Origin: Rhododendron vialii
Taxonomy: Eukaryota > Streptophyta > Magnoliopsida > Ericales > Ericaceae
Direction: 5' to 3'
Length of the DNA stretch: 64,000 nucleotides
NCBI RefSeq assembly: GCF_030253575.1
Contig: NC_080560.1
Span: 34,337,501 to 34,401,500, forward strand
This document shows positions 3,092 to 49,317 of this stretch, one piece after another (position 1 is the stretch's first letter; every line of letters begins with the position of its first letter). The position numbers and the translations under genes are program-made. The notes below the pieces were generated by a model. The model did no database searches and had not been told where the DNA came from. It saw nothing but the letters and a program-made list of their open reading frames with translations.

Positions 3092-4011
3092 GAGCTCTTC
3101 TTCACTGGTAAGCAACTCCAGGATGACCACAAGCTGGTTGACTATGGTATTCGGACGAACTCCACTCTCCACCTTTACCTCCAAGCTATAGACAGGATAA
3201 AGCTTCTTGTCTACATACCATCAAATAAGAAAACACTTGAACTTGAAGCAAAGACTCATGATACTGTGGAGAACGTTAAATTTTTGATTCAGACAAAAGA
3301 AGGCATCCTATCAGAAAAATTCACTCTTTTATACGGTGGAGAGCTGCTGGATAATAACTGAACTTTGGCCTCTTTTGGTATCCAGTCAGAATCAATGCTT
3401 TATTTGGTTCTCAACCAAAGAGATTTGGTGTCAGTTTCTGTGAAAATGCAAAGCGGAGAGATCTTGAAACTTAAGTTAAGGTCTGGCATACTATTCAGGA
3501 CCTCAAGGCAATAGTTCAGAGTATGGTCGGTTATTGGGCTGACGCGGAGGATCTAACTTTTGCAGGCAAGCTACTTGAGGATTCCAAGACTTTAGCTTGT
3601 TATAACATCAAGGAGAACTCCCTTCTGGAGATGTTCCCTTTGAACTTTAAGATTTTCTTGAAGGGCTTGAGTGGCAAAACTCTAGTTCTTAAAGTGTGCA
3701 AAGAGGACAGGGTCTTGGATGTGAAGAAAAAGATTTCTGATGAGAAAGGCTTTCCAGTTAGAGACATTTGTCTTGTGTTGGCTGGAAAACTACTGGAGGA
3801 CGATCGAGATTTGGGTTCCTACCATGTTAAAAAAGATTCCATTCTCTGTGAGTCTTTGGAAATGTTTGTACTTTGTACTTTTCTGGTGGGCCGTAGGCAA
3901 GGTGCTAATTTGGCTATATGTAGTAGAGTCGGCTCTGGTTTTTTGGCCAGTTTCCGGGCTCACTGCCTCCACCATTTATACCAAACTCGACTACCATTAG
4001 GCTGGGTGTGA
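3092..4011 (+). pseudogene. Tandem ubiquitin-like domain gene, copy 1 (decayed)
   Basis: The reading shows the C-terminal half of one ubiquitin-like (UBL) module (ELFFTGKQLQDDHKLVDYGI) followed by three more modules of about 75 residues. These start near 3184 (DRIKLLVYIPSNKK), near 3421 (VSVSVKMQSGEILK) and near 3640 (FKIFLKGLSGKTLVLKV). Each keeps the ubiquitin pattern of K-x-x-I..KEG..FAGKLLED..L..YNI..S.L. None ends in Gly-Gly, so processing into free modifiers is not expected. An AGA-to-TGA stop interrupts module 2 at 3359-3361, and a frameshift near 3478 breaks module 3. The first half of module 1 is missing. A near twin lies at 23203-24090. I infer a multi-UBL protein of unknown function that is now a pseudogene. 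Confidence 0.7.
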
Positions 4012-7140: not shown

Positions 7141-7503
7141 GGAGCGGTTCCGAAGACACTTAAAAAAACTCTTAAAAAACCCTCCCAAGTTTCCGATCGA
7201 ATTTTGATAATCCGAGCCGCTCAATGTAATCAGAACGTGATTTTAAGAGGGTCCGCGAGAAATCAGCAAAAAAAATGACCGAGAAGGGCTTCATCCGAAC
7301 AGTTTTTTATTGAACTTTATTGAACGGTTCAATAAAAAACTGCTCAAATCAAGCCCTTCCCAGTTAGTTTTTTTGCAAGTTTCTCGCGGGCACCCTTAAA
7401 ATCACGTTCTGAACACGTTGAGCGGCTTGGATCATCAAAATTTGATCGGGAACTATGAGATTAAGATTTGGAGGGTTTTTTTAAGTGTCCCCGGAACCGC
7501 CCC
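7141..7503. mobile_element. Fold-back (MITE-like) element
   Basis: The two halves are inverted copies for most of their length. The left begins GGAGCGGTTCCGAAGACACT and the reverse complement of the right begins GGGGCGGTTCCGGGGACACT. Central arms also pair ('agttttttattgaac' with 'gttcaataaaaaact'). It is flanked on both sides by TA runs, so the target duplication cannot be read. No coding capacity. Superfamily not assigned. Confidence 0.7.
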
Positions 7504-7560: not shown

Positions 7561-7589
7561 ACAACAAATAAATTCAACTTTGCGGACGG

Positions 7590-8673
7590 AAAATTTTTAT
7601 AAATGGTCCCTCTAGTTTGCATGAATTTTCATTTTCGTCCCTCAAGTATCAATTGTGTTACTTTTAGTCCTATAATTTGCATTCTGTCTCAATTTCGTCC
7701 CTCTCGTTTACGGCGTTAATGAAACAAACGGAATTGGAGGACAAAATTGTCATTTCTCCTCACAGATGGACTAAATTGAGATTTCATGTAAACTAGAGGG
7801 ACTATTTCTATAATTTTGTTTTTTACTTTTGTTTTTGTTAATAAATTTAAAATACATCATATATAATATATTTCTCATCTCATTTTATATTGAATAATAA
7901 AAAATATGTTGAAATTTTGTAAAGTTTTTATTATATACATCACAAAAAATATGAGAAAACTTGAAAAACAACCCTTATGATAATTGTCTTAGTCTTGTAT
8001 TTTTTTTTCCAATTGAATTTTCACTATCGTTATTTTTTTGTCACATGATTAAAAAGAAAAAGTTGTTCAGTAGTATTTAGAAATCTTGTAATTGTGTTTA
8101 ATTAAGCAATGAAACACTATTAAATATTAAGAGATCAAATACATTAAAATATGGGTATAAGTGTATTTATTTTGGGACTTACTCATAAGATCACTCATAT
8201 AACAAATAAACACGGATTTTAAACATTTTTTTATTGGGTGAAAAAATAAGAAGATTATAAGAACATGATACAAAGACATTAGCTAAGGGGTTGATTTGTG
8301 CATTTTCTAATATTTTTGTAATGTGTAATGAAATATAAATTTTTCAATATAGTTTGATTACCCAATAAAAAATAATTCAGTTGTCAAATACATTACTTAT
8401 GGTCTTTTTTATTTTATTTGCAAAAAACGAAAGTAAAATGTAAAATTTTAAAAATAATCCCTCTGGTTTGCATAAAATTTCAATTTGGTCCCTCTGTGAG
8501 AGAAAATGACAATTTTACCCTTCAACTCCATTTGTTTCATGGACGGCGTCAGGGAGAATGACGAAATTGAGATGGAATGAAAACTACAGGGTTAAAATTG
8601 ATACAATTAATAGTAGAGGGACGAAAATGAGAACTCGTGCAAACTAGAGGGACCATTTTTAAAAATTTCCCCT
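7590..8673. mobile_element. Element with about 230-bp terminal inverted repeats
   Basis: Two inverted copies of a 230-bp unit lie at 7590-7817 and 8441-8673 around 620 bp of AT-rich DNA. Outer ends read 'aaatttttataaatggtccctc' and, in reverse complement, 'aaatttttaaaaatggtccctc'. Each unit is itself palindromic, starting GGTCCCTCTAGTTTGCA and ending with its near complement. Long TIRs of this kind are common in plant MULE derivatives. No 9-bp target duplication was found, so the class is open, and two separate palindromic MITEs are an alternative. Confidence 0.55.
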
Positions 8674-12706: not shown

Positions 12707-13290
12707 TAACGGGGTGTTTGGGAACCTACTTTTTGGCTTTTCATTTTCAGTTTTTTGGCTTTTTGGATTATGGCCAGAATGTATTTTGGGTATGAAGAGT
12801 GTTTGGGAAGATTTGTACAGAATGTATTTTGAAATTGTAGTAGTGTTTGGTAAATGATTGTTGAGAATGAATTATGGGTTGTATTTTTACCATATTGCCC
12901 TTTGTCTTCTTATAACAGGTCACTTCCGTTTTTTTGTTAAATTTTTTTTTTTACTTTATTATTGAATATTTTTTATGGGCTGTTTATTGAAGTCTGTTAT
13001 TTTAAAGTAATGTTTTGTGTTTGCTTCTTCTTCTTTTTTCCAGATCTGCTGTTTGCCTTTGGCCGTTATATTGTTGTGGTAAAATAATTGTTTTTGATAT
13101 GTAATTTTTTTCCTTTTTTTAATTTAAGGAAGACATTCGGTATTTTTATTTGGTATTTTAGATATAAAAAAATAAGACCAATGTTACAAGTAACACTTTA
13201 ATTTAACGACAAACACATAACATAAATATAAAGAACAATTAAACAAACACAAACACTTTATTAATATTACAAGTCCGAAGCCAAAAAAAC

Positions 13291-13312
13291 ACACACACAC
13301 ACACACACACAC
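13291..13312. repeat. (CA)n microsatellite
   Basis: A short CA run just downstream of the transposase 3' end. Confidence 0.9.
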
Positions 13313-13410
13313 AAACCACGCCTACAAGCAGAATGAAAAAAAAAGCACAGCAAAAAAACCAAACACACAGGTTCAACAATATTACACAACCTCCAAAGTG
13401 TCGAGGTAAC

Positions 13411-14899
13411 CTAACGTATATTGTTTTCCATAATGAAATCTCGCATAGATGCCCTTACAGTGTCCATGTTACGATCATCATGTTGGACCCTACTTCCATG
13501 GTTGCAGTTAGGTGCTGTAGTTTCTACTCCTCGATCTGAAGGCAAGAAATTTGGTCGCCTATCATAGAAACCAAAAGGAATGTCGGGAAAGTTGTTCCTT
13601 CTTATAAAATTATGAATCGCCATCGTTGCGGACACAAGAGCTACTTGTGTTGTCATTGTGAAGCCAACAGGCATGTCACAAATCAGAGGCCAATGAGCTT
13701 TCCAAATGCCATATGTCCTTTCAATGGTGCATGGAAGAGAGGAGTGTATTTTGTTAAACCTTTCAAAGTTGGTCCTTGGTGCACCTCCGTCACGCCATTC
13801 AGGAGGGTGACATCTACAACCTTTGTATGGTGCTAGATAACCACGAGTGTTTGGGTACCCGGCATCTACCAAATAAAATTGATCTATAGTGATTGTGAAA
13901 TACGTTAGTTGTAAAAATTTTAGTACAATTACGGTGTAATATAAGTAAAGGAGAAATCACAGGACTAACCTCCTTGTGGTGTTGGAAACTTTAACGTAGG
14001 ATTCCTTATACAATCATAAAAAATTCTTGTGTCGTGCGCACTTCCTTCCCATCCCGATAACACGAACGTGAAGCACATATCAAAGTCACATGCGGCCATA
14101 ATGTTTTGTGTTGGATATCCTTTACAACCAATCCATTTCTGTATGGGGTCGTCCGTAGGTGGGTGGGCTTTTATGTGAGTGCCATCAATAGCCCCAATGC
14201 ACTCCTACATATAGAAAATTGAATGGTTAAAAGCCCCAAGGCTACGAATTGGCTGGATACTCATAAAACGAATAAATCAATTACAAAAAATACCTTGAAA
14301 TGTGGATAATATCTTGGATTGTTAGCTATTTTGCTATGCACTCCTTGTTGAGGCCATGGTCTAACCCAATCGATAGCCATGGCATTGAGGGCGTTTAGCA
14401 CATTATGGAACTGCCTTGATATAGTCTCCCCTGAATGTTGAAAATGTTCTTGGGCATTTCTATTATTAGCTCGTTGGCCCATTATCCAGAGAAAGATAGT
14501 TACTTGCTCAGCAACTAAGATTCGCTCGGATACTTGCAACCCATAATTATGCTCAAGTTGGTAAACAAGTGAAAAGAAATTCATCTTACTCATACGAAAT
14601 GATTGATACATACGCTTTGGGTTTCCCTCTTCCAGCTCGGTGACCCAAGCTCAACCAGTTAAGGCGGAGGTGCGGCACGGTCCCTTGCACATGTACGTAT
14701 CATGGTGGATGTTACATATCCCAATAGCAGCTCATCTTATTCTTGCATTTGCCCGACTAGGCGTAGGATGACTCGACCCTTCCCCGGTATCGTTCGGATC
14801 TCCATCGTATGGATCTCCGCCATATGGATCGTCATTGTTCCAATTTTCTTCATCGTAAAGATCATGATCGTAATCATCCGGATTTGCATAATTTGCCAT
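13411..14899 (-). pseudogene. PIF/Harbinger DDE transposase with two in-frame stops
   Basis: Three exons read cleanly with GT-AG introns: 14899-14294, 14204-13970 and 13883-13411, 437 codons plus stop. Motifs fit the DDE_Tnp_4 family: CRTSALTG near the N-terminus, WVTELEEGNPKRMYQSFRM, IGAIDGTHIKAH (first Asp, codon 209), GSAHDTRIFYD (second Asp, 260), YLVDAGYPNTRGYLAPYKG, and IERTYGIWKAHW (Glu, 335). All three catalytic acidic residues are kept and exon phases match. Two TGA codons lie in frame at codons 56 (14734-14732) and 83 (14653-14651). Arg is the usual residue at the second, so CGA-to-TGA deamination at CpG is likely. A start after the stops would lose the N-terminal DNA-binding part. 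It would excise the element together with the Myb-like partner. Confidence 0.88.
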
Positions 14900-14936
14900 A
14901 CAGATTTGTAGGGGTAAACATGCACAGTGGTAGAAT

Positions 14937-16400
14937 ATGGGCTATTTTATTGCAAATGGAGCTTTGTTTCATGTTTTAAAAAACACAGCCAAGTGTATGG
15001 GTATTTATACACATTCTTGGTTATTGTTTTGTAAAGCAAACCCCCCTAGCCAAGTTGCCGACAGATTTTCAAAAGTATTGGCACTATTCAAATTTTTTTG
15101 GGAAGTTAAAATCACTATTCATATTTGGAGCTATTTCATGCATTATTGGACTTTTTCCATAAATGTAACTTGTCCTTCATGCATTATTGTCCTCCCCCAT
15201 TTGCCAAACACCAAATATACAGCCAAAGTGTCAAGAAAGCTGGGAATTCAGAATCTGCAAGGACTCGTGAAGTGCATTATTGGCCTCTTGAAAGCAAGAA
15301 AGCTTTGAATTATTGTGCTCCCTCTGATTGCTGAAAAAACCCAATCATGTATGAACACATCCCATAGATGCAGATTCGGGCAGGGAACTACCCATAAACC
15401 TTACTCTCTAAAGAATGAAAAAACAAGGAACCTCATGTTTAAACAACCAAATGCACTATACAGTAGTGGATAAACAGAATTTCACATCGAAGAATATATT
15501 TACCAATATATGTATCAGAGTGTAATCAAAGGGAGAACAATTTTATTTGGTTGACAAAATGAAAGGGGTCACTAAAACAATAAATGGGGGCGCATTTCAT
15601 CCAATGACCCTGCTTTAACCAATTTTTTCTGTTTATGAAGTGGTGCAACAAATTAGACTTGTGGACTTTAGCTGGGAAAAAAATAGCTGACTTCATTATT
15701 TTAGTGAGATACCCACCCAGTTATATAACCAAATTACACAGAAACAATTCTCATTGATTTCAACAACATAATATTTGCAGAGTCTACACATACATATTTA
15801 TATGAGTTAGTCATTCATATGACACAACACAGAAAAGCAAAATTTGGTAAATGAAAAAAGAATCAACACAGGCAATGACAATACAAGTTCTAAGAAACTG
15901 CCTAAACAGACAAAAAAGCCATTGTTTTTGTTCATATGGCATAGCAAACTTCGAATCAATTCGACTTCCAGTCCAGCAACTTATCTGAGCCACAAATCAT
16001 TCAACTTCTGTCAAGCTTGCTTAAACACCCTTAAACTCATGGCAACATTTTTTCTATTATGCGTGGACCAATAAAAATTAACCTTTTAACTCCAAAAACA
16101 AGCATCAATAACTCCAAATACTACCATTAACTCCAAATACTATCATTAGTCAGTACTCCACCAGACACCAGGAACCATCAGTCTCAAAGTACTACAATCA
16201 GTAACACCAACAAAATTATTCACTACTGAAACAGAAACTTCACCACCAAATTAAAGTGCAGAAAAACTGGAAAAGGTGTTGCAAACTCAGTCATACAAGT
16301 CTAGTTAAAGTCTCATCGAAAACCACACAAATTTAAAACATGAAAGTCTAGTAAACACCACTTGAAAGAGGGCAAGACATGAACTGAGGTCGCCAGCCAT
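14937..16400. other. Harbinger internal non-coding segment
   Basis: No coding region is seen between the 5' end of the transposase and the 3' end of the Myb-like ORF. Open frames here lack motifs. Confidence 0.5.
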
Positions 16401-16404
16401 AAAC

Positions 16405-17502
16405 TTACCGATTGTTGAACCAATTGCCACCACCCATTTTCTGCAACTCAGCTGCTTCCACCCTTTGCAATTCTTGGGTGATGAAGTAGTACCTCCTAAT
16501 TTCGTCCGGGCAAGTCATGAAAAGCGTTCGGGCCCTCGCATCTCTGAAAAGGTTATGGACTTTTGCCCACAACGTTGGATCTGTGTCAAACTCAGGGAGT
16601 AGCAATAGCTTATCACTGCATTCTTTTATCGTTGGAATGTCAGAGGCAGCACGGTGGACGGAGGAGGGAGAACTTGCACTATTAGTTGAGTCACAGATTT
16701 GTTGCATGCAAGCTTCAAGTCTTGAGCCCATGGTACCCTTTTTGCCTTTGCCTTTCTTCGTGGCCAATCCATCAGCACGCCTCTTCTTGGAGACATCTTC
16801 CAGTGGGTGCACCAATTCTTGAACCTCAGCATCATTATCCAACAATGCATCAATGTCATCCATCTCCAAATTTATAGTACACTCTTCCGGGGTAGCTGGA
16901 ATTGAGCCTGAACTAGGTGTGTGCATATGCTCACCAGTAGCTGTGTTGCTACCAAAAAGGATGCGCATTTCCTCCTCAAGTGGCAAAGGCTTTTCCTTGA
17001 ACTTGATGCACTCGGGATGGCGCTGCAAATAAACATATCATTTAGGGAAATGATTTAAAAATAACCTATGTATTTTGGCGAAAGAAAAACAAATTCAGAA
17101 GGCACAATACAGTGCTTGAAAGAAATTGGGAGGAAGGAATACCATCAGCTTGAGATCCCACCACTCCTCTGATGCTGTAATAGCACCTGTGTCTGGATCC
17201 CTACCTAGTTCGGTTTCACCTAAAACCAAGTGTTGCCATAGCTGCCACTTCTTTTTCAAAACACCCCATTGATTCTTCAGTTGGCTTCTAGTATAATCCT
17301 TTCCCCTTCGTTCATTAAATTTCTTCAGAACATTGGCCCACCCAATCTTGGTAAGTTGGGTTCCTTCTTTGTACCCAGCACCTCCCAACTCTTCCACACA
17401 TGCTTGGATGAAGCACTCTTTGGACTGTGCATGCCAAATTGCTTTAGTAGCTGCAGTTGCCATTTTTTCCCTTCTTGAAGATGTTGTTTGAGTGGAAGAC
17501 AT
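16405..17502 (-). CDS. Myb/SANT-like partner protein of the Harbinger element
   Basis: Two exons, 17502-17143 and 17022-16405, give an uninterrupted 325-residue protein. The start is the first ATG on this frame; a longer frame upstream begins without ATG. Residues about 15-115 form a Myb/SANT-like domain: IWHAQSKECFIQACVEELG, then WANVLKKFNERRGKDYTRSQ, QLKNQWGVLKKKWQLW and EEWWDLKLM. After the intron come HPECIKF, an acidic segment, a basic KKGKGKKG stretch that could be a nuclear signal, and a C-terminal ARTLFMTCPDEIRRYYFITQ helix. PIF/Harbinger elements encode such a protein to help the transposase enter the nucleus and bind the ends. The stop at 16405-16407 overlaps a good GTAAGT donor, so a further exon is possible. 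Confidence 0.85.
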
Positions 17503-17991
17503 GTCTACAGTAGTGGAAAAACACAATTATACGTTCTGAATAAAAGGAAAGCACAACTGTCCACGAATCAAAACGTCCAACCAAATGATTCCTTCAATGA
17601 CCACTAATGACAAAAGAAAGTTCTATTGGAAGCAACCTATGCGAATATTACATATCTATACACGTGTATTACTTCTATCTTCTACTATTTCATCATAGTA
17701 TTGTTGGTAGACAACTTTCATATACTATCATCGCAAATAATTGCCTTAACACGATTCCAGGTAAGGAAAATGGTACTCAGGTTCAACACATAGGTCATAA
17801 GTACGACTAAACAACCCAACATTTATACTCCGAATTAAATTAAAACTACAATAAGTTTCTGCTACATCTTGCCAATTCTCAATACAACATAATAATGACA
17901 AAAAGTTGGGAAATTACAAAATAACATGGGCATCAGTACTTGGCTAACACATAGCCATACTAGAATCTGAATTTAACGACATCTCCCATCT

Positions 17992-18426
17992 TCATTTCAA
18001 CACGATGACCCCCATCGTGATAATGAGGCATATGGCCAAAAACTTTGTCAACATCTTTGAATACTCAAATTGTTGTCGAATGATCATAACCTCTTTCTCA
18101 AGTGCTACAACATCATCAATGACCTTGGTAGCACAGACATTGGAAGCACAGACATTGATATATTCAGTCGATCCCCAACCGCCAATTTGACTACTGCTTG
18201 TCCATTCCACAGGGAGGCACCAGTCAAAGAACCCACACCGAGCTGCCCTCTCCTTACGACATATAAAATACAATTCTCCTTTCGACTTCTCATTCTTTTC
18301 AACAACCTTAATTTCAGCCATTGTCCCACAATAACAATTTCTTGGCTTATACAGAAGTTTGGGGGTGTTGGTAACCCCTTTCTTGGTCTCACTCTCCGCT
18401 CGATAATAACTACTGCTCGATGACAT
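17992..18426 (-). CDS. zf-GRF and C-terminal transmembrane protein inside the Harbinger element
   Basis: An intact 144-codon single exon. Residues 31-69 form a GRF-type zinc finger: CYC at 31-33, GELYFIC with Cys56, then Cys64 in CGFFDW. A short helix (VIDDVVALEKEVMIIRQQFE, about 102-121) could be a coiled coil. Residues 125-143 (MLTKFLAICLIITMGVIVLK) are a hydrophobic tail-anchor-like segment. GRF fingers bind nucleic acid in other proteins, and small plant proteins of this zf-GRF plus transmembrane design are common but uncharacterised. It lies between the Myb-like ORF and the element end on the same strand, so it is either a third transposon gene or captured host cargo. Confidence 0.75.
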   Translation of the reverse strand: MSSSSSYYRAESETKKGVTNTPKLLYKPRNCYCGTMAEIKVVEKNEKSKGELYFICRKERAARCGFFDWCLPVEWTSSSQIGGWGSTEYINVCASNVCATKVIDDVVALEKEVMIIRQQFEYSKMLTKFLAICLIITMGVIVLK

Positions 18427-19629
18427 TTGCCTTTAACAAACAGGTATATTACTACAGATTAGTACAAAATAATTACTATAGATTTTCTTTTTTAAGAACT
18501 GAACGCAGGGTAGAATTTTTTCAACAAAATCTACAAACATTAACCAGTATCGTAAACCCTAAATGTTGATGAAGAACTAAAACAGTAGGATATTCTTCTT
18601 CCCCTGAAGAAGAAACTGGGGATGCTTTGGTAACTAAAACTGTAATTTACTTTGCTGCTGAGACTGGAACTCAAATATAAAATTTGCTGCTCCAACAGTT
18701 GGAATCAAATTCCAACTGCAGGCATTGAGAGTGGGTTTGGAAGGATTCGTCGTAGTGGACATAACCCAACCTCAAAGATCATTCCTATTTGTATTTTTTT
18801 TCTTTTTCGGCCTGTTTGATTGGGGGTTTAAGATTAGGTGGGTCGTGGTCGAGGGATTGGTAGTCCGAGGGCTAAATGCAGTGTAGGATCCTGTGTTTGT
18901 GGAGGGATTATATTACTAGGACAAAGAACAGGAGAGAGAGAGGACCCATGGTGTGAGTGTGACACATCTCCTACTTTACTCCCTATATGTGTCACCATCC
19001 CCTTCTCGCCTCTGCTTCTTTGGTGTCCCAATCGCCATTAAAGAGCACACAGAGGAAAAAAATACTCTGTAGTAAGTCGGAAAAATAAAACCCTTGTCAA
19101 ATCTCTCTCTCACTTGCTCTAATCTTACAAATCTATAACAACCTACACACAGAAACCCTAACCTCAAGCCGAAGAACAATCCTAAGCCGAAGAACAAGAA
19201 GAATACCTGAAGATTGGGTACAGAAAGTTGATGAGAGGTGGTGTAGATCTGCTCCGGCAACACACTGTGTACGATGACGACTGTGCTTCTCGTTTCTCCT
19301 CTCTGATCTTCTCTCTCTGGTCTCTCTCCCCCTTCTCTCTCTTCTCTAGGTGTCAGTTGTGTGGTGAGCAGATGAGAAGGGAGTGGATAAGGAGGGAGGG
19401 GCAAATCTGGTAAAATGAGGGAGTATTATGGGTATATTGGTAATAGAAACCCAAAATCCGAAAATGAGAATCCAAAAAACTCCTCAAACCCAAATTTTGG
19501 TTTTTGGCTCCTAAACCCAAAATCCGAAAACCTATTCTCCTAAAATCCATTCTCAACTTCAGTTGCCAAACACTCAAAATCTGAAAATGAGAATCCAAAA
19601 ATTTACTTGCCAAACACCCCCTAAGAATC

Positions 19630-19674
<45 letters not shown>
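19630..19674. repeat. (GA)n microsatellite at Harbinger 3' flank
   Basis: A GA run that starts just outside the element. Confidence 0.95.
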
Positions 19675-19676
<2 letters not shown>

Positions 19677-19762
19677 GAACCTTGAGCTGCTGTGAAGTCG
19701 ATGTAAGGAGAAATTGAGAGACGAACCTTGAGCTGCTGTGAAGTCGATGTAAGGAGAAATTG
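19675..19762. repeat. Two tandem copies of a 45-bp unit
   Basis: The unit 'acgaaccttgagctgctgtg...gaaatt' occurs twice head to tail beside the GA run. Confidence 0.85.
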
Positions 19763-21778: not shown

Positions 21779-22370
21779 GATCACTATGCACGATTCTTTC
21801 GTATTTTACTCTTGGACGCACAGAATTACAGTTGGTTGCAACAAATTACACTTGGCTACTTGGAATTGCATATGGCTACGGAATATTAAAAGCGTGATCA
21901 CCGAAAATGATTCTTTCGTAAATAGCAAGGCTCTTGGCCACGAAAAATTACAGTTGGTTGCTTTGAAATTGCATATGGCCACGAAATAGTGAAATCATGA
22001 TCACTGTACATGATTTTTTCGTGTTTTACATGGCTTTTGCCGCGAGAAATTACATTTGGCCGCGTCAAATTACAGTTGAACGCTAGAAATTGCATCTGGC
22101 CGCGCAATAGTAAAATCGTGATCACTGTACACGATTTTTTCGTGTTTTACATGGCTTTTGCCGAGAGGAATTACAATTGGCCGCATTAAATTACAGTTGG
22201 CCGCTTATAATTGCATTTAGCCGCCAAATACTGAAATCGCGATCACTGTACACGATTTTTCGTGTTTACATGGCTTCCGCCGTGAGGAATTACAGTTGGC
22301 CGCATTAAATTACAATTGGCCGCTTATAATTGCATTTGGCCGCGAAAGTGATTTACATGACTCCTCGCCG
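21779..22370. repeat. Tandem array of about 118-bp units
   Basis: Units begin GATCACtgtacacgattctttcgtg at about 21779, 21896, 21998, 22119 and 22240. Each carries three or four sub-repeats of the type AATTACAGTTGGCCGC. The middle units are the most alike; the outer ones are more diverged. No gene is seen. It looks like a degenerate minisatellite. Confidence 0.85.
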
Positions 22371-22605: not shown

Positions 22606-24600
22606 GAACACGAGGTCATATCCTTACTTTTCATGTTTTTTTGTGTGTGTCTGTTTTTATCGATATTTCTCATTATTTTTCTTGCATTTGGTAGATGAGA
22701 AAGCGTGCTGAAGAACAGAAAATTTTCATTAGTTTGGTTTATCTTGATAACTAGATCTCTGGACCACCTCGACTAAATCCGGATTCTTGAAGTTAGGGAC
22801 CGGGCAAACGGTGGCCTCACGGTACAGAATGTTTGGCCACCGTGAAATTCAAACATGTGATCACAAACACTTATTGCTTTTCCCATTCCCAGTTGGAATA
22901 CAACTTCTGATTCTCGCTTGAGGAAGTTGTGTCAATGTGTTTACCACAACTTCTTCTTTTGGGCCAAAACATTTTGATGCTAAAAGATTAAGCTTTTACC
23001 AATATAACAGTTTTGGCAATCAATATCGCCCTAGGTGGTGCTTATTCCGAGAGTAATTATTCAATAGTCCAGGAGTACAGACACGCAGTACTCTGGACAA
23101 GTTTACAAGTGGTCTGGAGTATTACGTGGCGGCACCCCGGACTATTGTATAATTTCACTTATTCTGAGCACTTGCCGGTCCTTCTTGTGTTTCGTTACAG
23201 ATGAACGTATACGTGAAGGTCATCAAAACAGTTGCCTTAAAAGGTATCACAGACAACTAAAAAACTGAAGGCATTGTTTCATAAGAAGGAAGGCACTCCG
23301 GGAAATGTTCAGGAGCTGTTTTTCGCTGTGAGCGGCTCAAGGATGACCACAAGCTGGTTGACTATGGTATTTGGACGAACTCCACTCTCCATCTTTTTCT
23401 CCAAACTATAGACAGGATAAAGCTTCTTGTCTACATACCATCAAATGCAAAACAATCTGAAGTTGAAGCGAAGTCTTGTGAAACTGTTGAGAACATTAAA
23501 CTCTTGATTCAGACAAAAGAGGGCATCCTATCAGATCAATTCACTCTTTTCTACAGTGGAAAGCTGCTGGAAGAAAACAGAACTTTGGCCTCTCTCAATA
23601 TCCAGTCAGAATCGATCCTTTATTTGGTTTTCAACCCAAGAGATGTGATGTCAGTTTCTGTGAAAATGCCGACGGAGAGATCCTGAAACCGGAAGTCAAG
23701 GTCTTGCACACAATTCGTGATGTCAAGGCAGTAATTCGGAGTTTCGTTTGTTTTGTGGACATAGACGAGCAGAATTTAACTTATACAGGAAAGCTACTTG
23801 AGAACTCAAAGACTTTAGCTTATTATGACATTAAGGAGAACTCCCTCTTAGAGATGTTGCCTTTTACCTATCAGATATTTTTGATGGACTTGGATGGAAA
23901 AACACACTTTCTTAGAGTGTGCAAAGAGGACAGGGTCAGGGATGTGAAGTCTAAGATTTTACACTGGTTTAGTGTGCCCGTTCACTGCTATAATCTTGCA
24001 TATGCTTGAAAAATACTCAAGGATGACGAAGATTTGGCTACATACCATATTGTGAAACATTCCCATCTCCATGTAGTTTTTCGAGTTAGCGTACCAAAGT
24101 TTTTCCCTCTAGGGCACCGAGCCTTTGCACTATCGGGGCCTTTGGAAACTTTGTGCTTTTTGGTTGTCCCTAGGCTAGATGCTGACTTGCCTATATGTTC
24201 TGACTGCTCTGTTTCATTTGTAGTTTTTTTGGCTCCACTGCCTTACCATTCACATGAAACTTCACTATCCTTAGGCTGCATTTAGCTCATGGAAGTTTAG
24301 AAGGATTTGTCAAGGGAAGGGACCGTGGTAGGGAAAACTTATCTTTTGTTACTTAAGTATCTTATTAGCTTTTCCTTTTCCTTCCTCTACAAATCCCTCC
24401 TCAAATCCACGATCCAAACACAGCATTTGCGATTTAATGCCATGATATGAAGAAACTAATGAAACAAACCGGGTCAATGGAATAGGGATACGTGATCTCT
24501 CTTTGGTTGATTGCCTTTGCAGGGTCATATTTCTCTTCCTGATTTTGTTATCAAGAACTGCAAAGTGAGAGTCGATTTGGACAAGCATGCTTCATTATTT
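22606..24600 (+). pseudogene. Tandem ubiquitin-like domain gene, copy 2 (decayed)
   Basis: A possible first exon (ATGGATTCAAATGAACACGAG then gt) starts near 22593. After an acceptor (gttacag) UBL module 1 starts at 23203 (MNVYVKVIKTVALKG) and is damaged by TAA/TAA and a frameshift near 23325. Module 2 (IDRIKLLVYIPSNAKQSEVE to SILYLVFN) is open. Module 3 has a one-base frameshift near 23668. Module 4 (YQIFLMDLDGKTHFLRV) ends with an in-frame TGA at 24006 where Gly is expected. Module order, flanks and a downstream exon (24523-24603) match copy 1 at 3092-4285. None of the modules ends in Gly-Gly. Lesions differ from those of copy 1, so duplication preceded decay. Confidence 0.7.
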
Positions 24601-40200: not shown

Positions 40201-41154
40201 CACACTCTGGATAACAAAGGTCAGCAGGAGAACTGGGCAAGTTGGATACCACACAAGTCAGCAGAGACAGAATAGGAAAAGAGACGGACGGCTGATAGGC
40301 AGCAACAAGAAGTTAGCATTTCTTATTTTTCTAGACAAAATCCACTGCCCAACTTCTACAAATGTCAAACCCTGTCAGATGACTCATTGGTGAGATATGA
40401 AGCTTTTTGAAATCAATTCCTTGGTTTTTACTTCTCTCCCCTCAGTTGCCAACAAATGAAAAAATGCTATATAGTATATACTGTACCCAATATTCGCAAT
40501 AGCGCCTCTTCTCTAACTACCTGTTCCCAGTAACTATTATTAGAAACAAGCAACTAAATGATAGACTATCATAACGTTCTCTTTGCACAACAATCATAAT
40601 TAATCAGCAATCCACCCGCAGGACCTCCAAATCAAACTTGACATGGAGTGGGATATTGCTTGCAGTGGAATTTGAAAGGCAAACACAACACATGACGCCA
40701 GTTTCAAAGCAGATATGAGTGCGCACCAATTTCAAAGCACTTTCACGAGGAACAACTAAGCAAATTAGCCTCATTGATAACTCATTGTTATTCAAAACAG
40801 AGAACTATAATAACGACAAGTGTGTAACATGTTCTGAACCTGCATAAAATTGTAGCGTTCTCTTCCAATAGATTCATTTTCTGCAACGGCAAAATAGGCT
40901 AGCATAGGATAGTGTCCAACATATGAAGCATAGCTGTCCCGCTGGATGTTCACAGCCCATTCACTGGACAAAAACACACCAAAATATAAGAACAATAAGC
41001 TATAACAATTAAAAACAAATTGAAAATCTTGCCACAACTTCGAAAGGATTTGAAGATATTACAATCTATGCAAGTCTGCATGCCCAGTTCCAACATATTT
41101 AGTTTGTAGATGCTCAAGCTGGGAATTGATATTAAACCTGTCACTGGCCTGCAT
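37271..41154 (-). CDS. SF3B5: Splicing factor 3B subunit 5 (SF3b10)
   Basis: Three exons, 41154-41063, 40963-40840 and 37318-37271, join in phase into 87 uninterrupted codons. The protein starts MQASDRFNINSQLEHLQTKY, continues FEWAVNIQRDSYASYVGHYP and AYFAVAENESIGRERYNFMQ, and ends KMLLPCGPPPEREDD. This is the highly conserved SF3b10/SF3B5 family at its usual length of about 86 residues. The protein is a small core subunit of the SF3b complex of U2 snRNP in the nucleus, packed against SF3B1. Intron 1 is about 100 bp. Intron 2 is 3,521 bp and carries a solo LTR (37859-39726). A hAT-like element begins 86 bp upstream of the ATG, so it lies in or next to the 5' leader and promoter. The reading frame and splice sites are intact, so it is probably functional. 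Confidence 0.93.
37859..39726. mobile_element. Solo LTR inside SF3B5 intron 2
   Basis: The 1,868-bp segment begins TGTAACACCCTAGAC, ends GGGTCGTTACA and is flanked by a perfect 5-bp duplication TATAC (37854-37858 and 39727-39731). TG...CA ends, the 5-bp duplication and no internal coding region define a solo LTR left by LTR-LTR recombination. Length and TGTAAC/GTTACA ends suggest Ty3/gypsy (inference). Confidence 0.88.
40205..40765. repeat. Segmental duplication, copy in SF3B5 intron 2
   Basis: This segment of intron 2 is repeated at 44149-44838 in the same orientation. Shared stretches include 'aggagaactgggcaagttgg', 'ggcagcaacaagaagttagc', 'gaaacaagcaactaaa' and 'cacatgacgccagt'. A 55-codon open frame is seen in both copies, but substitutions change amino acids freely, so I do not call it coding. 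Confidence 0.8.
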
Positions 41155-43994: not shown

Positions 43995-44148
43995 AGAAAC
44001 AGAAATTGGAAGAGCTTTGCTTTTACTGCGGTTTTGGCTCCAAAGCTACAACATATGTGTCTACCTTTCCTTCTCAACTACCATATTGGTTGCAAATGAA
44101 TATAATCCCCGAAGACCAAGTTCAAAATGCATATTGCTTTCATTAAAG

Positions 44149-44838
44149 GTTAGCAGGAGAACTGGGCAAGTTGGATACCACACAAATCATCATAGACAGA
44201 ATAGGAAAAAAGACGGACAACTAATAGGCAGCAACAAGAAGTTAGCATTTCTTATTTTTCTAGACATGTAAGAGTGTTCGGACAAATAAGCCAAAGTGGC
44301 TTATTTTTTGTCCTTATTCAAATTTTTTTCGTATCACTTGGCTTATTGTCATTTTTTTTTGGGGATTATTGCATTCTCACGACAAGAGGAATCTAAAAAG
44401 TAAAAAATTTTGACCGAAATCCAATTTTTTTTGAATAAAGACGAAAAAAAAAATTTGAATTATCGTGAGGATGCAATAATCTCCAAAAAAAAAATGAGAT
44501 ATGAAGCTTTTTGACTCAGTTGCCAACAAATGACAAAATGCTATCTACTGTACCCAATATTTGCGGTAGCTCCTCTTCTCTAACTACCAGTTCCCAGTAA
44601 TTACTACTATTAGAAACAAGCAACTAAAGGATAGACTACCATAATGTTCTCTTTACACCACAATCATAATTAATCAGCAATCCACCTGCAGGACCTCCAC
44701 ATCAAACTTGACATGGAGTGGGATATTGCTTACAGTGGAATTTGAAAGGCAAACACAACACATGACGCCAGTCTCAAAGCAGATATGAGTGCACACCAAT
44801 TTCAAAGCACTTTCACGAGGAACAACTAAGCAAATTAT
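44149..44838. repeat. Segmental duplication, second copy
   Basis: Matches 40205-40765. It carries an extra block (about 44272-44495) with its own inverted repeat ('ggattattgcattctcacga' against 'tcgtgaggatgcaataatct'), absent from the intron copy, which suggests a later MITE-type insertion. Confidence 0.75.
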
Positions 44839-47936: not shown

Positions 47937-48829
47937 GTTACATTAAAAAAATAAAAATATTTATGCTTACTTAATTCCTAAAGTGAGAAAATTTTTTCTT
48001 TCCTAAAAATTTGCTGAATTTTTTGAAATACAATTAACATGATATTAAAATATATAAAAATACATATATAAACATTGTTCAAAAATTTTTAAAAATATGA
48101 CAACAGATTTTTTGCCAATCAAAATTAGTTGTTGGTCACCAAAAAATTTTCTTGGGGCGAAAAATTTAATTTTAGCTAGTAAATTTAGTAGACAATAGTG
48201 TTTTTTTGTTGTAATGTGCGCTTTGTATTTTTATGAAAATTATCACAAACTGCAGATTGTAACATTATAGACAAACTTTAGATTTTTTTTTTATAAACTA
48301 ACCATTTCACATGGATTTTGTGTTTATATTGAATTTTAATTTCAATGGTGGCTTATCAATTGGATTTTAATCCTTTTCAGACAATACTAAGCCATAATAA
48401 TATAATTTCTTTTTTACCAAATGTGTCAAACGTATACTTGAAAGACATCCAAAATAACTAAATTTCACTATTACAATAAACCATAAAGATTACAGCTCGC
48501 CCACGTGAAAATCGGGCACTAGTGGAACAGTTCACCCATCGTCGAAGAAGCAACTGGGCACTGGTGGAACCCAGTTGTGGGATTTGCCTTCTCTCTCTTT
48601 CGAGATCGTTTTTGGGCGTGAAGATGAAGATGAAACGTAAATTTTTTTGGGATAAGTGTAATTAGGGCTTATCTTCTTACCTTTTGTAAAAAAAGAAAAA
48701 AAAATTTTCAAAGTTCTTAAATGACATCGTTTTTCTCACATAACTTTTCAAAGTCTGCCTAAATGAGTACCAGCCCTCCTACGTGAAAATTCAGGCTGCG
48801 CGCCTAAATGGGTAGGCTTTTTATCTCAC

Positions 48830-49150
48830 CGCAAGAGTGAGATCATTTATCTCACTTTTTTTCGCGATAAAGTTTTTTATCACGCTACAAGGGTGAGGTT
48901 TTTTCTCTTTTATCTCGCCACAAGAGCGAGATCTTTTATCTCATTCTTTTCCGCCCAAAAATCTTTTATCACACCAGAAGGGCAAGGTCTTTTCTCTTTT
49001 TTGTCACGCCACAAGGGCGAGATCTTTTATCTTTTATCTCGCCACAAGAGCGAGATCTTTTATCTCATTTTTTTCCGCCCTAAAATCTTTTATTACGCCG
49101 CAAGGGTGAGGTTGTTTTTCTTTTATCTCGCCGCAAGAGCGAAGTCTTTT
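48830..49150. repeat. Tandem repeats 'tttatctcgccacaagagcgagatc'
   Basis: Three to four imperfect units of about 95 bp lie inside the CACTA element. Each contains short inverted motifs (CTCGCC...GGCGAG type). Confidence 0.75.
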
Positions 49151-49317
49151 ATTTCGCGCTAAAACCCACTTTTTATCTTAGCATTGGACTTAAACTGAGA
49201 TAAAAAATTTTAAGCACCACCTTTTATCATGCTTTCACTAAAAACCATGATCTTTGTGAATCTTCTTAATCTGACGCACATCTATTATTGTAGTAGTGCG
49301 CGTCCTTGAAATTAAAA

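Follow-up and report, generated by a model that had tools for sequence, protein, structure and literature searches.

A PIF/Harbinger element with a third gene

The 64,000-nucleotide (nt) stretch of Rhododendron vialii DNA analysed here (the window; assembly GCF_030253575.1, contig NC_080560.1, positions 34,337,501–34,401,500 of the forward strand) contains a 6912-bp DNA transposon of the PIF/Harbinger superfamily at positions 12710–19621, with all genes on the minus strand. The order of these genes is GRF, then Myb, then transposase: a gene for a small GRF zinc ribbon protein with a hydrophobic C-terminal tail is followed by a Myb/SANT-like gene and by a DDE transposase gene. Published descriptions give Harbingers two open reading frames (ORFs) (PMC4482050, PMC2213677, PMC6327408), and the additional GRF gene is the main subject of this report.

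The GRF gene (17992–18426, minus strand) is a single-exon ORF of 144 amino acids containing a GRF zinc ribbon (residues 30–70), a helix and a hydrophobic segment (residues 125–143). A Pfam search matches the zinc ribbon to PF06839 with 40.6 bits (cut-off 25.9; E 2.8e-10), and the four zinc-binding cysteines can be read as NCYC..FIC..RCGFF. Among solved structures, those of the NEIL3 GRF fingers are nearest (E 3.5e-9). The C-terminal segment, which ends one residue before the end of the protein, has a mean 19-residue hydropathy of 2.46, as expected of a tail-anchor helix, and a single-sequence structure model places a helix at residues 96–143, confident only from approximately residue 121. The original prediction of a third intact ORF on the same strand, encoding a GRF domain and a membrane-type tail, is thus borne out.

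The Myb/SANT-like gene has two exons on the minus strand, at 17143–17502 and 16405–17022; the end of the first and the start of the second were placed by reading. The ORF containing exon 1 matches Myb_DNA-bind_3 (E 1.4e-18), and exon 2 is open without a Pfam match. The transposase gene, also on the minus strand, has a three-exon structure with GT-AG junctions assigned by reading. Exon 2 (13970–14204) contains GAIDGTH and matches DDE_Tnp_4 (E 4.6e-9); exon 3 (13411–13883) contains VDAGYPN and ERTYG and matches the same family (E 1.5e-5). The catalytic residues lie within these three motifs, with a D-to-E spacing of 47 residues between the last two, and the gene encodes a DDE_Tnp_4-type transposase with its DDE residues despite two in-frame TGA stops in exon 1 (14294–14899; limits by reading, no Pfam match). 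The transposase and Myb-like pair of the original prediction is therefore present, but its count of three ORFs stands only for the GRF gene and the two-exon Myb gene and fails for the transposase, whose first exon is interrupted.

The element begins with CGGGGTGTTTGG at 12710 and finishes with CCAAACACCCCC at 19621, and a TAA target-site duplication (TSD) can be read on either side (12707–12709 and 19622–19624). The terminal inverted repeats (TIRs) are of the GGG..GTTTGG type, and the same or nearly the same ends are found in seven more copies. The left TIR (12710–12755, plus strand) pairs with the right TIR (19576–19621, minus strand) over 45 nt with 82% complementarity (12711–12755 with 19576–19620), and the outermost base differs between the two ends (C versus G). 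The 11-mer GGGGTGTTTGG occurs exactly at only two sites in the window, both of them element ends. Allowing one mismatch gives three matches against 0.96 expected, and because 6 of 100 shuffled sequences also reach three, the 11-mer alone is not decisive; it is the 45-nt repeat together with the TSD and the further copies that fixes the ends. Subterminal repeats are present on both sides. A plus-strand array of 2.5 copies of a 43-bp unit (12775–12883; tandem repeat search) is a candidate binding site for the element's own proteins, and a repeat search found plus-strand direct repeats at 19447–19601.

With TIRs, a 3-bp TSD, a DDE transposase and a Myb/SANT gene all present, the PIF/Harbinger identity originally proposed is confirmed, as are the two readable termini and the TAA duplication. 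The description of the element as near-complete needs correction: the window copy is a complete, slightly decayed Harbinger with a defective transposase, and it could move only with transposase from another copy.

Directly outside the right end of the element (19632–19762) lie a (GA)22 run and an exact tandem duplication of 46 bp. Two ubiquitin-domain genes (3108–4011 and 23285–24009), approximately 20 kb apart, flank it on either side and have DNA in common (300 nt at 86% and 196 nt at 81%).

Copies, linkage and diverged lineages

The window's own genome (532.6 Mb in 13 contigs) contains at least 51 PF06839 matches, the window included (150 of 206 candidates scored). Twenty regions of 10 kb around a match were fetched from the other GRF matches; a further match lies inside one of these (L013), and locus L036 was added later. 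In tblastn comparisons of the 20 GRF loci, 11 match the GRF gene, the two Myb exons and the three transposase exons, all in order and on one strand, with some pieces broken or partial; three match GRF and Myb only, and six are Mutator-like element (MULE) or host loci. Ten of the 14 Harbinger loci form family A, with GRF proteins 86–95% identical to that of the window (longest piece), and four form a sister family B (GRF 40–45%; transposase exon 3 61–72% in the three loci that have it). The GRF ORF is open over its full length in 11 of the 14, and some copies have no stop in any of the six gene pieces.

For eight copies, that in the window among them, both ends could be placed (6768–8180 bp), and the GRF gene is inside every one of them; this is the check on full-length copies with the same ends that came with the original prediction, run here in the element's own genome. 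The other five family A copies are 90.5–95.2% identical to the window element at the DNA level and the two family B copies 62–63%. Seven of the eight have equal 3-bp TSDs (TAA, TTA, TTA, TAT, TAT, TTT and CTG); L026, as delimited, ends in GTA on one side and TAA on the other. Duplications other than TWA are seen in L010, L012, L020 and L024 (CTG, TTT, TAT and TAT, respectively), so that the 3-bp length is kept but this lineage is not strict for TWA, which is found in only part of the family. There is no similarity among the 400-bp flanks of the eight delimited copies (E ≤ 1e-5). The copies are thus dispersed, and because they sit at unrelated sites each separate insertion brought the GRF gene with it.

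Linkage was also counted from the transposase side. A transposase exon 3 query gave 150 hits (150 of 252 candidates scored), which merged to 147 loci, and these were compared with 74 GRF sites obtained from the PF06839 family search and from a second query, the first GRF exon of L031 (33 hits at E ≤ 1, all accepted as GRF sites). This second query comes from one of the eight loci at 50–59% transposase identity, and GRF genes diverged beyond both queries escape the count. A GRF site lies on the same strand 1.5–16 kb upstream at 17 of 26 loci with at least 60% transposase exon 3 identity to the window, at 6 of 8 loci with 50–59%, at 1 of 7 with 45–49% and at 2 of 106 below 45% (3 of 113 below 50%). 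At equal distances downstream, GRF sites are found at 0 of the 147 loci. The distance in the 17 linked close loci is 3.7–5.3 kb, except for two at 12.5 and 15.4 kb. The three linked GRF sites below 50% identity have E values of 0.0003, 0.006 and 0.48, and the first of them alone was read (L034, below).

Five of the nine close loci (at least 60%) without a listed GRF site were read: L029, L030, L032 and two at L033. L029 has a GRF gene that is frameshifted, and in L030 and L032 the GRF gene has gone together with other genes. L033 (G000:C13:19826200–19836100) contains a compound or inverted pair of B-like copies in head-to-head arrangement, each with Myb and transposase genes and without a recognisable GRF gene. 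It is a true exception, and the GRF ORF is accordingly not always present. Copies do not consistently lack the gene either, since it lies upstream in 17 of the 26 close loci and L029 adds a frameshifted one. Nor is the ORF bounded by scars of a separate insertion: no inverted repeat brackets it among the 25 longest of 56 pairs.

A first count gave 0 of 113 loci below 50% identity, as if only families A and B had the gene; this was dropped after the split-GRF query, because a GRF gene split by an intron had been missed. In L031 (transposase exon 3 at 56%) a GRF gene with an intron in its zinc ribbon lies upstream of Myb. Joined at its splice sites it encodes 127 amino acids with the zinc ribbon NPGRRYFKC, a central stretch resembling a coiled coil by eye, and a C-terminal tail (hydropathy maximum 2.28). 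L034 (44%) has a first GRF exon, an intron and an open frame with a tail (hydropathy 3.23), followed by Myb and then transposase, and has the intron acceptor TAG|CCTTGC in common with L031. L037 has an L031-type GRF gene preceding a Myb gene that is split by approximately 3 kb of other sequence. In L035 (42%) neither Myb nor GRF was found in the 6 kb upstream with A, B and L031 queries. Judged from these sequences, the GRF gene is no peculiarity of the window copy: four or more Harbinger lineages have it, and it is a standing gene of this Harbinger lineage, though not of every copy.

In both L031 and L034 the intron follows the third residue past the CP of the third cysteine. L013 (G000:C7:8704163–8714125) appears to be a host gene; it encodes two GRF domains and what looks by eye like a CCHC knuckle. 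Potential donor sites occur at this same position in both of its GRF domains and an acceptor for one. These are hints, not proof, that the Harbinger GRF gene derives from a host GRF gene, for which L013 is a possible source.

Selection was estimated from pairwise Nei-Gojobori counts of the ratio of nonsynonymous to synonymous substitution rates (dN/dS). The pairs are non-independent, and selecting loci by GRF score favours those with an intact GRF ORF. In comparisons of family A with family B, GRF has a ratio of 0.50 (44 pairs); the two Myb exons have 0.25 each, and the three transposase exons have 0.25, 0.11 and 0.20. By part, the GRF ratio is 0.40 for the first 75 codons and 0.65 for the C-terminal rest, and in a full-length alignment of open ORFs it is 0.53 (32 pairs). 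A Fisher test on rounded mean A–B counts for GRF gives p 0.007. By these counts the GRF gene is constrained but the fastest of the three, which fits either a protein at the interface with the host or one that is only weakly needed.

GRF genes in FAR1-type MULEs, and other repeats of the window

Tailed GRF genes also occur in MULEs of the same genome, where the tail was read at L014, L018, L027 and L036. In L018 a GRF-tail ORF is convergent with a transposase gene containing FAR1, MULE and SWIM domains, and both are inside terminal repeats of approximately 390 bp at 97% identity. In L014 the GRF-tail ORF is convergent with a FAR1 piece inside repeats of approximately 210 bp at 80%, and in L036 it is convergent with a stretch matching the L018 element at 84–90% DNA identity. 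Decayed GRF domains are convergent with other MULE pieces in L028 and L023, whereas in L027 an open GRF-tail ORF lies upstream of MULE pieces that share its strand. The convergent arrangement recalls that of the MuDR genes mudrA and mudrB.

A genome-wide search for the MULE domain, with 150 of 1102 candidates scored, was not complete enough for a linkage count, and the L018 transposase served as the query instead (64 hits at 60 loci; 61 of 1187 candidates scored). A convergent GRF site lies within 8 kb at 8 of 15 loci with at least 80% identity and at 2 of 45 below 80%, and divergently oriented GRF sites, the control, at 0 of 60. Among the 51 PF06839 sites, 18 belong to Harbingers (17 by coordinates, L025 by reading), 12 to the L018-type MULE family (10 by coordinates, L014 and L036 by reading) and three to other MULEs by reading; two are in one apparent host gene, and 16 are unassigned. 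Harbinger or MULE loci thus account for 33 of the 51. The GRF gene looks, from its sequence neighbourhoods, like an accessory gene type common to Harbingers and a second superfamily. A tree of GRF domains (12 short sequences) does not tell whether the Harbinger and MULE genes have one origin.

The window contains several other repeats. An inverted repeat of 298 nt with 78% complementarity (7588–7885 and 8374–8671; spacing 488 nt) adjoins a palindrome at 7188–7454 (128-nt arms) and is perhaps another small terminal-repeat element. Direct repeats at 40216–40767 and 44145–44837 (93–95%), approximately 4 kb apart, are perhaps the ends of another. Tandem arrays lie at 21945–22347 and 48819–49152, with units of 121 bp and 89/124 bp.

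Origin and possible role of the GRF gene

The window element is very probably a cut-and-paste PIF/Harbinger whose lineage possesses its own set of three genes, as insertions at unrelated sites carry all three. By comparison with known Harbingers, the Myb protein would bind the element ends and bring the transposase, which would cut the element and reinsert it. The GRF protein may be an accessory that is not needed for the cutting chemistry, a weaker proposal made because most other scored Harbinger transposase loci have no GRF gene findable by the two queries. The hydrophobic tail would be its anchor in the endoplasmic reticulum (ER) or the nuclear envelope, and nucleic acid or a host factor would be bound by the zinc ribbon, such that the protein could act at the host interface, either shielding element RNA or DNA from silencing or repair or positioning it at the nuclear periphery. 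A counter-defence or tethering role of this type, common across superfamilies, is proposed tentatively, with less than even confidence. Because tailed GRF genes are also found convergent to FAR1-type MULE transposase genes, the gene is read as an accessory that superfamilies have exchanged with one another or acquired repeatedly. We offer with similar reserve the possibility that small tailed GRF proteins constitute an accessory class of plant transposons, both PIF/Harbinger and MULE, acting at the ER or nuclear envelope against silencing or repair.

Several observations weigh against this interpretation. The GRF gene is the fastest evolving of the three (A–B dN/dS 0.50 against 0.11–0.25 for the other pieces), and within family B its ratio is 0.76 to 0.95, although six pairs say little. 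It is broken in three of the 14 family loci (L009, L021 and L024) as well as in L029, has been lost with other genes in L030 and L032, and is not recognisable in either copy at L033. Joining the L034 gene at its obvious splice sites does not bring its two parts into one frame, which may mean decay of this copy or another mode of splicing. As seven of the eight delimited copies came from GRF matches, they establish joint movement of gene and element but give no frequency for copies without the gene. Among the close MULE loci, 7 of 15 have no listed convergent GRF site. The structure model of the window protein has a mean predicted local distance difference test score (pLDDT) of 48 and is of low quality outside the region of the C-terminal helix. 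Finally, GRF fingers prefer NxGRxF before the third cysteine (PMC9369019), and NxGRxF(Y) is absent there from families A and B, which have KGELYF and RGELYY or LGELYY, respectively; L031 has NPGRRYF, L034 has NPGKWYY and the L014-type MULE gene keeps NPGR. Nucleic-acid binding by the A and B proteins may, on these motifs, have been changed or lost, and since GRxF reads GELYF or GELYY in them while NPGR is kept in L031 and the L014-type MULE, their binding partner may differ.

Three other explanations were considered. The first, hardly credible and rejected, is that at this one locus the GRF ORF is a chance neighbour, a nested insertion or host sequence trapped between a pair of terminal repeats. 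The unusual layout in the window speaks for it; against it, the gene is present in seven more delimited copies with unrelated flanks, it is upstream of 17 of 26 close transposase loci and downstream of 0 of 147, and no inverted repeat among the 25 longest of 56 pairs brackets the ORF. Capture (transduplication) of a host gene as a passenger without function for the element, as known from Pack-MULEs and from the long 5′ region of grapevine Pifvine-3, has more in its favour. Captured host sequence has been reported in the 5′ region of PIF elements, which is the place of the GRF gene here (PMC2528002), a GRF-domain gene has been captured by a MuDR-type Pack-MULE (PMC3503983), and the GRF intron of two Harbinger lineages coincides with a potential splice-site position of the apparent host GRF gene. 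A passenger is nonetheless unlikely, given that position, strand and domain plan are kept across lineages whose transposase exon 3 is 44–72% identical to that of the window, that the ORF is whole with its tail and not a fragment, and that the dN/dS between families is below 1.

At the opposite extreme, the GRF protein could be a core component required for transposition, for example as a scaffold between Myb protein and transposase or in handling single-stranded ends. The same gene order in four lineages would suit such a role, as would the single-stranded DNA binding of the GRF zinc fingers of NEIL3 (PMC9266487). However, mobilisation in the superfamily is described as requiring two element proteins, ORF1 and TPase (PMC2836001), copies without GRF exist (L033), GRF genes are also found in MULEs, and a membrane tail is unfit for a soluble nuclear transpososome; a core role is judged about as improbable as a passenger.

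The preferred interpretation, a three-gene Harbinger with an accessory GRF protein, can be set beside known systems. PIF, Pong, MtPH of Medicago and PePIF1 of Phalaenopsis are described with the same GGG..GTTTGG-type TIRs, 3-bp duplication, intron-bearing DDE transposase and Myb/SANT ORF1. The elements here differ from such two-gene PIF/Harbingers in the tailed GRF zinc ribbon gene preceding Myb, and in the several copies with TTT, TAT and CTG duplications besides TAA and TTA. In grapevine Pifvine-3 elements (5.8–6.7 kb), as much as 3.5 kb of additional sequence outside ORF1 and transposase frequently lies on the 5′ side, at the place of the GRF gene, although the authors of that study read it as captured host DNA (PMC2528002); 'GRF' occurs 0 times in the text of the paper.

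Accessory genes are known from other DNA transposons. The ULP protease genes of KI-MULE and other elements are also a case of one accessory domain in distant transposons of two superfamilies, but they encode a protease, not a tailed zinc ribbon, and are reported for MULEs and CACTA elements (PMC2528002). Fungal TET/JBP genes and the oomycete HarbingerS elements with SET are likewise extra genes in Harbingers and other superfamilies (PMC12730594), although as described they are DNA- or histone-modification enzymes, whereas the GRF protein has no recognised enzyme domain. The mudrB gene of MuDR and the VANC and VANB genes of Arabidopsis Hiun (VANDAL MULEs) are accessory ORFs beside a transposase, and VANC is an anti-silencing factor (PMC6446971, PMC12730594). 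No sequence relation to them is claimed here, and an anti-silencing role for the GRF protein is a hypothesis. No account of a GRF gene as a regular constituent of Harbingers came up in the literature searched, which does not extend to Repbase reports or most subscription papers and may have missed an earlier notice in them. Relatives were sought in viral contigs, prokaryote genome contigs and plasmids, without a match.

The accessory genes of DNA transposons are a meeting place of elements and host defence. The wider finding is that tailed GRF genes occur in two transposon superfamilies of one genome, which provides a defined and testable candidate for such an accessory, and their presence in diverged Harbingers and in MULEs suggests a common need, as has been discussed for VANC, ULP and TET. 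Many plant GRF genes in annotations may be mobile; 33 of the 51 sites scored here were assigned to Harbingers or MULEs. If the accessory-class interpretation is true, many plain plant GRF zinc-finger annotations would be transposon genes or their derivatives.

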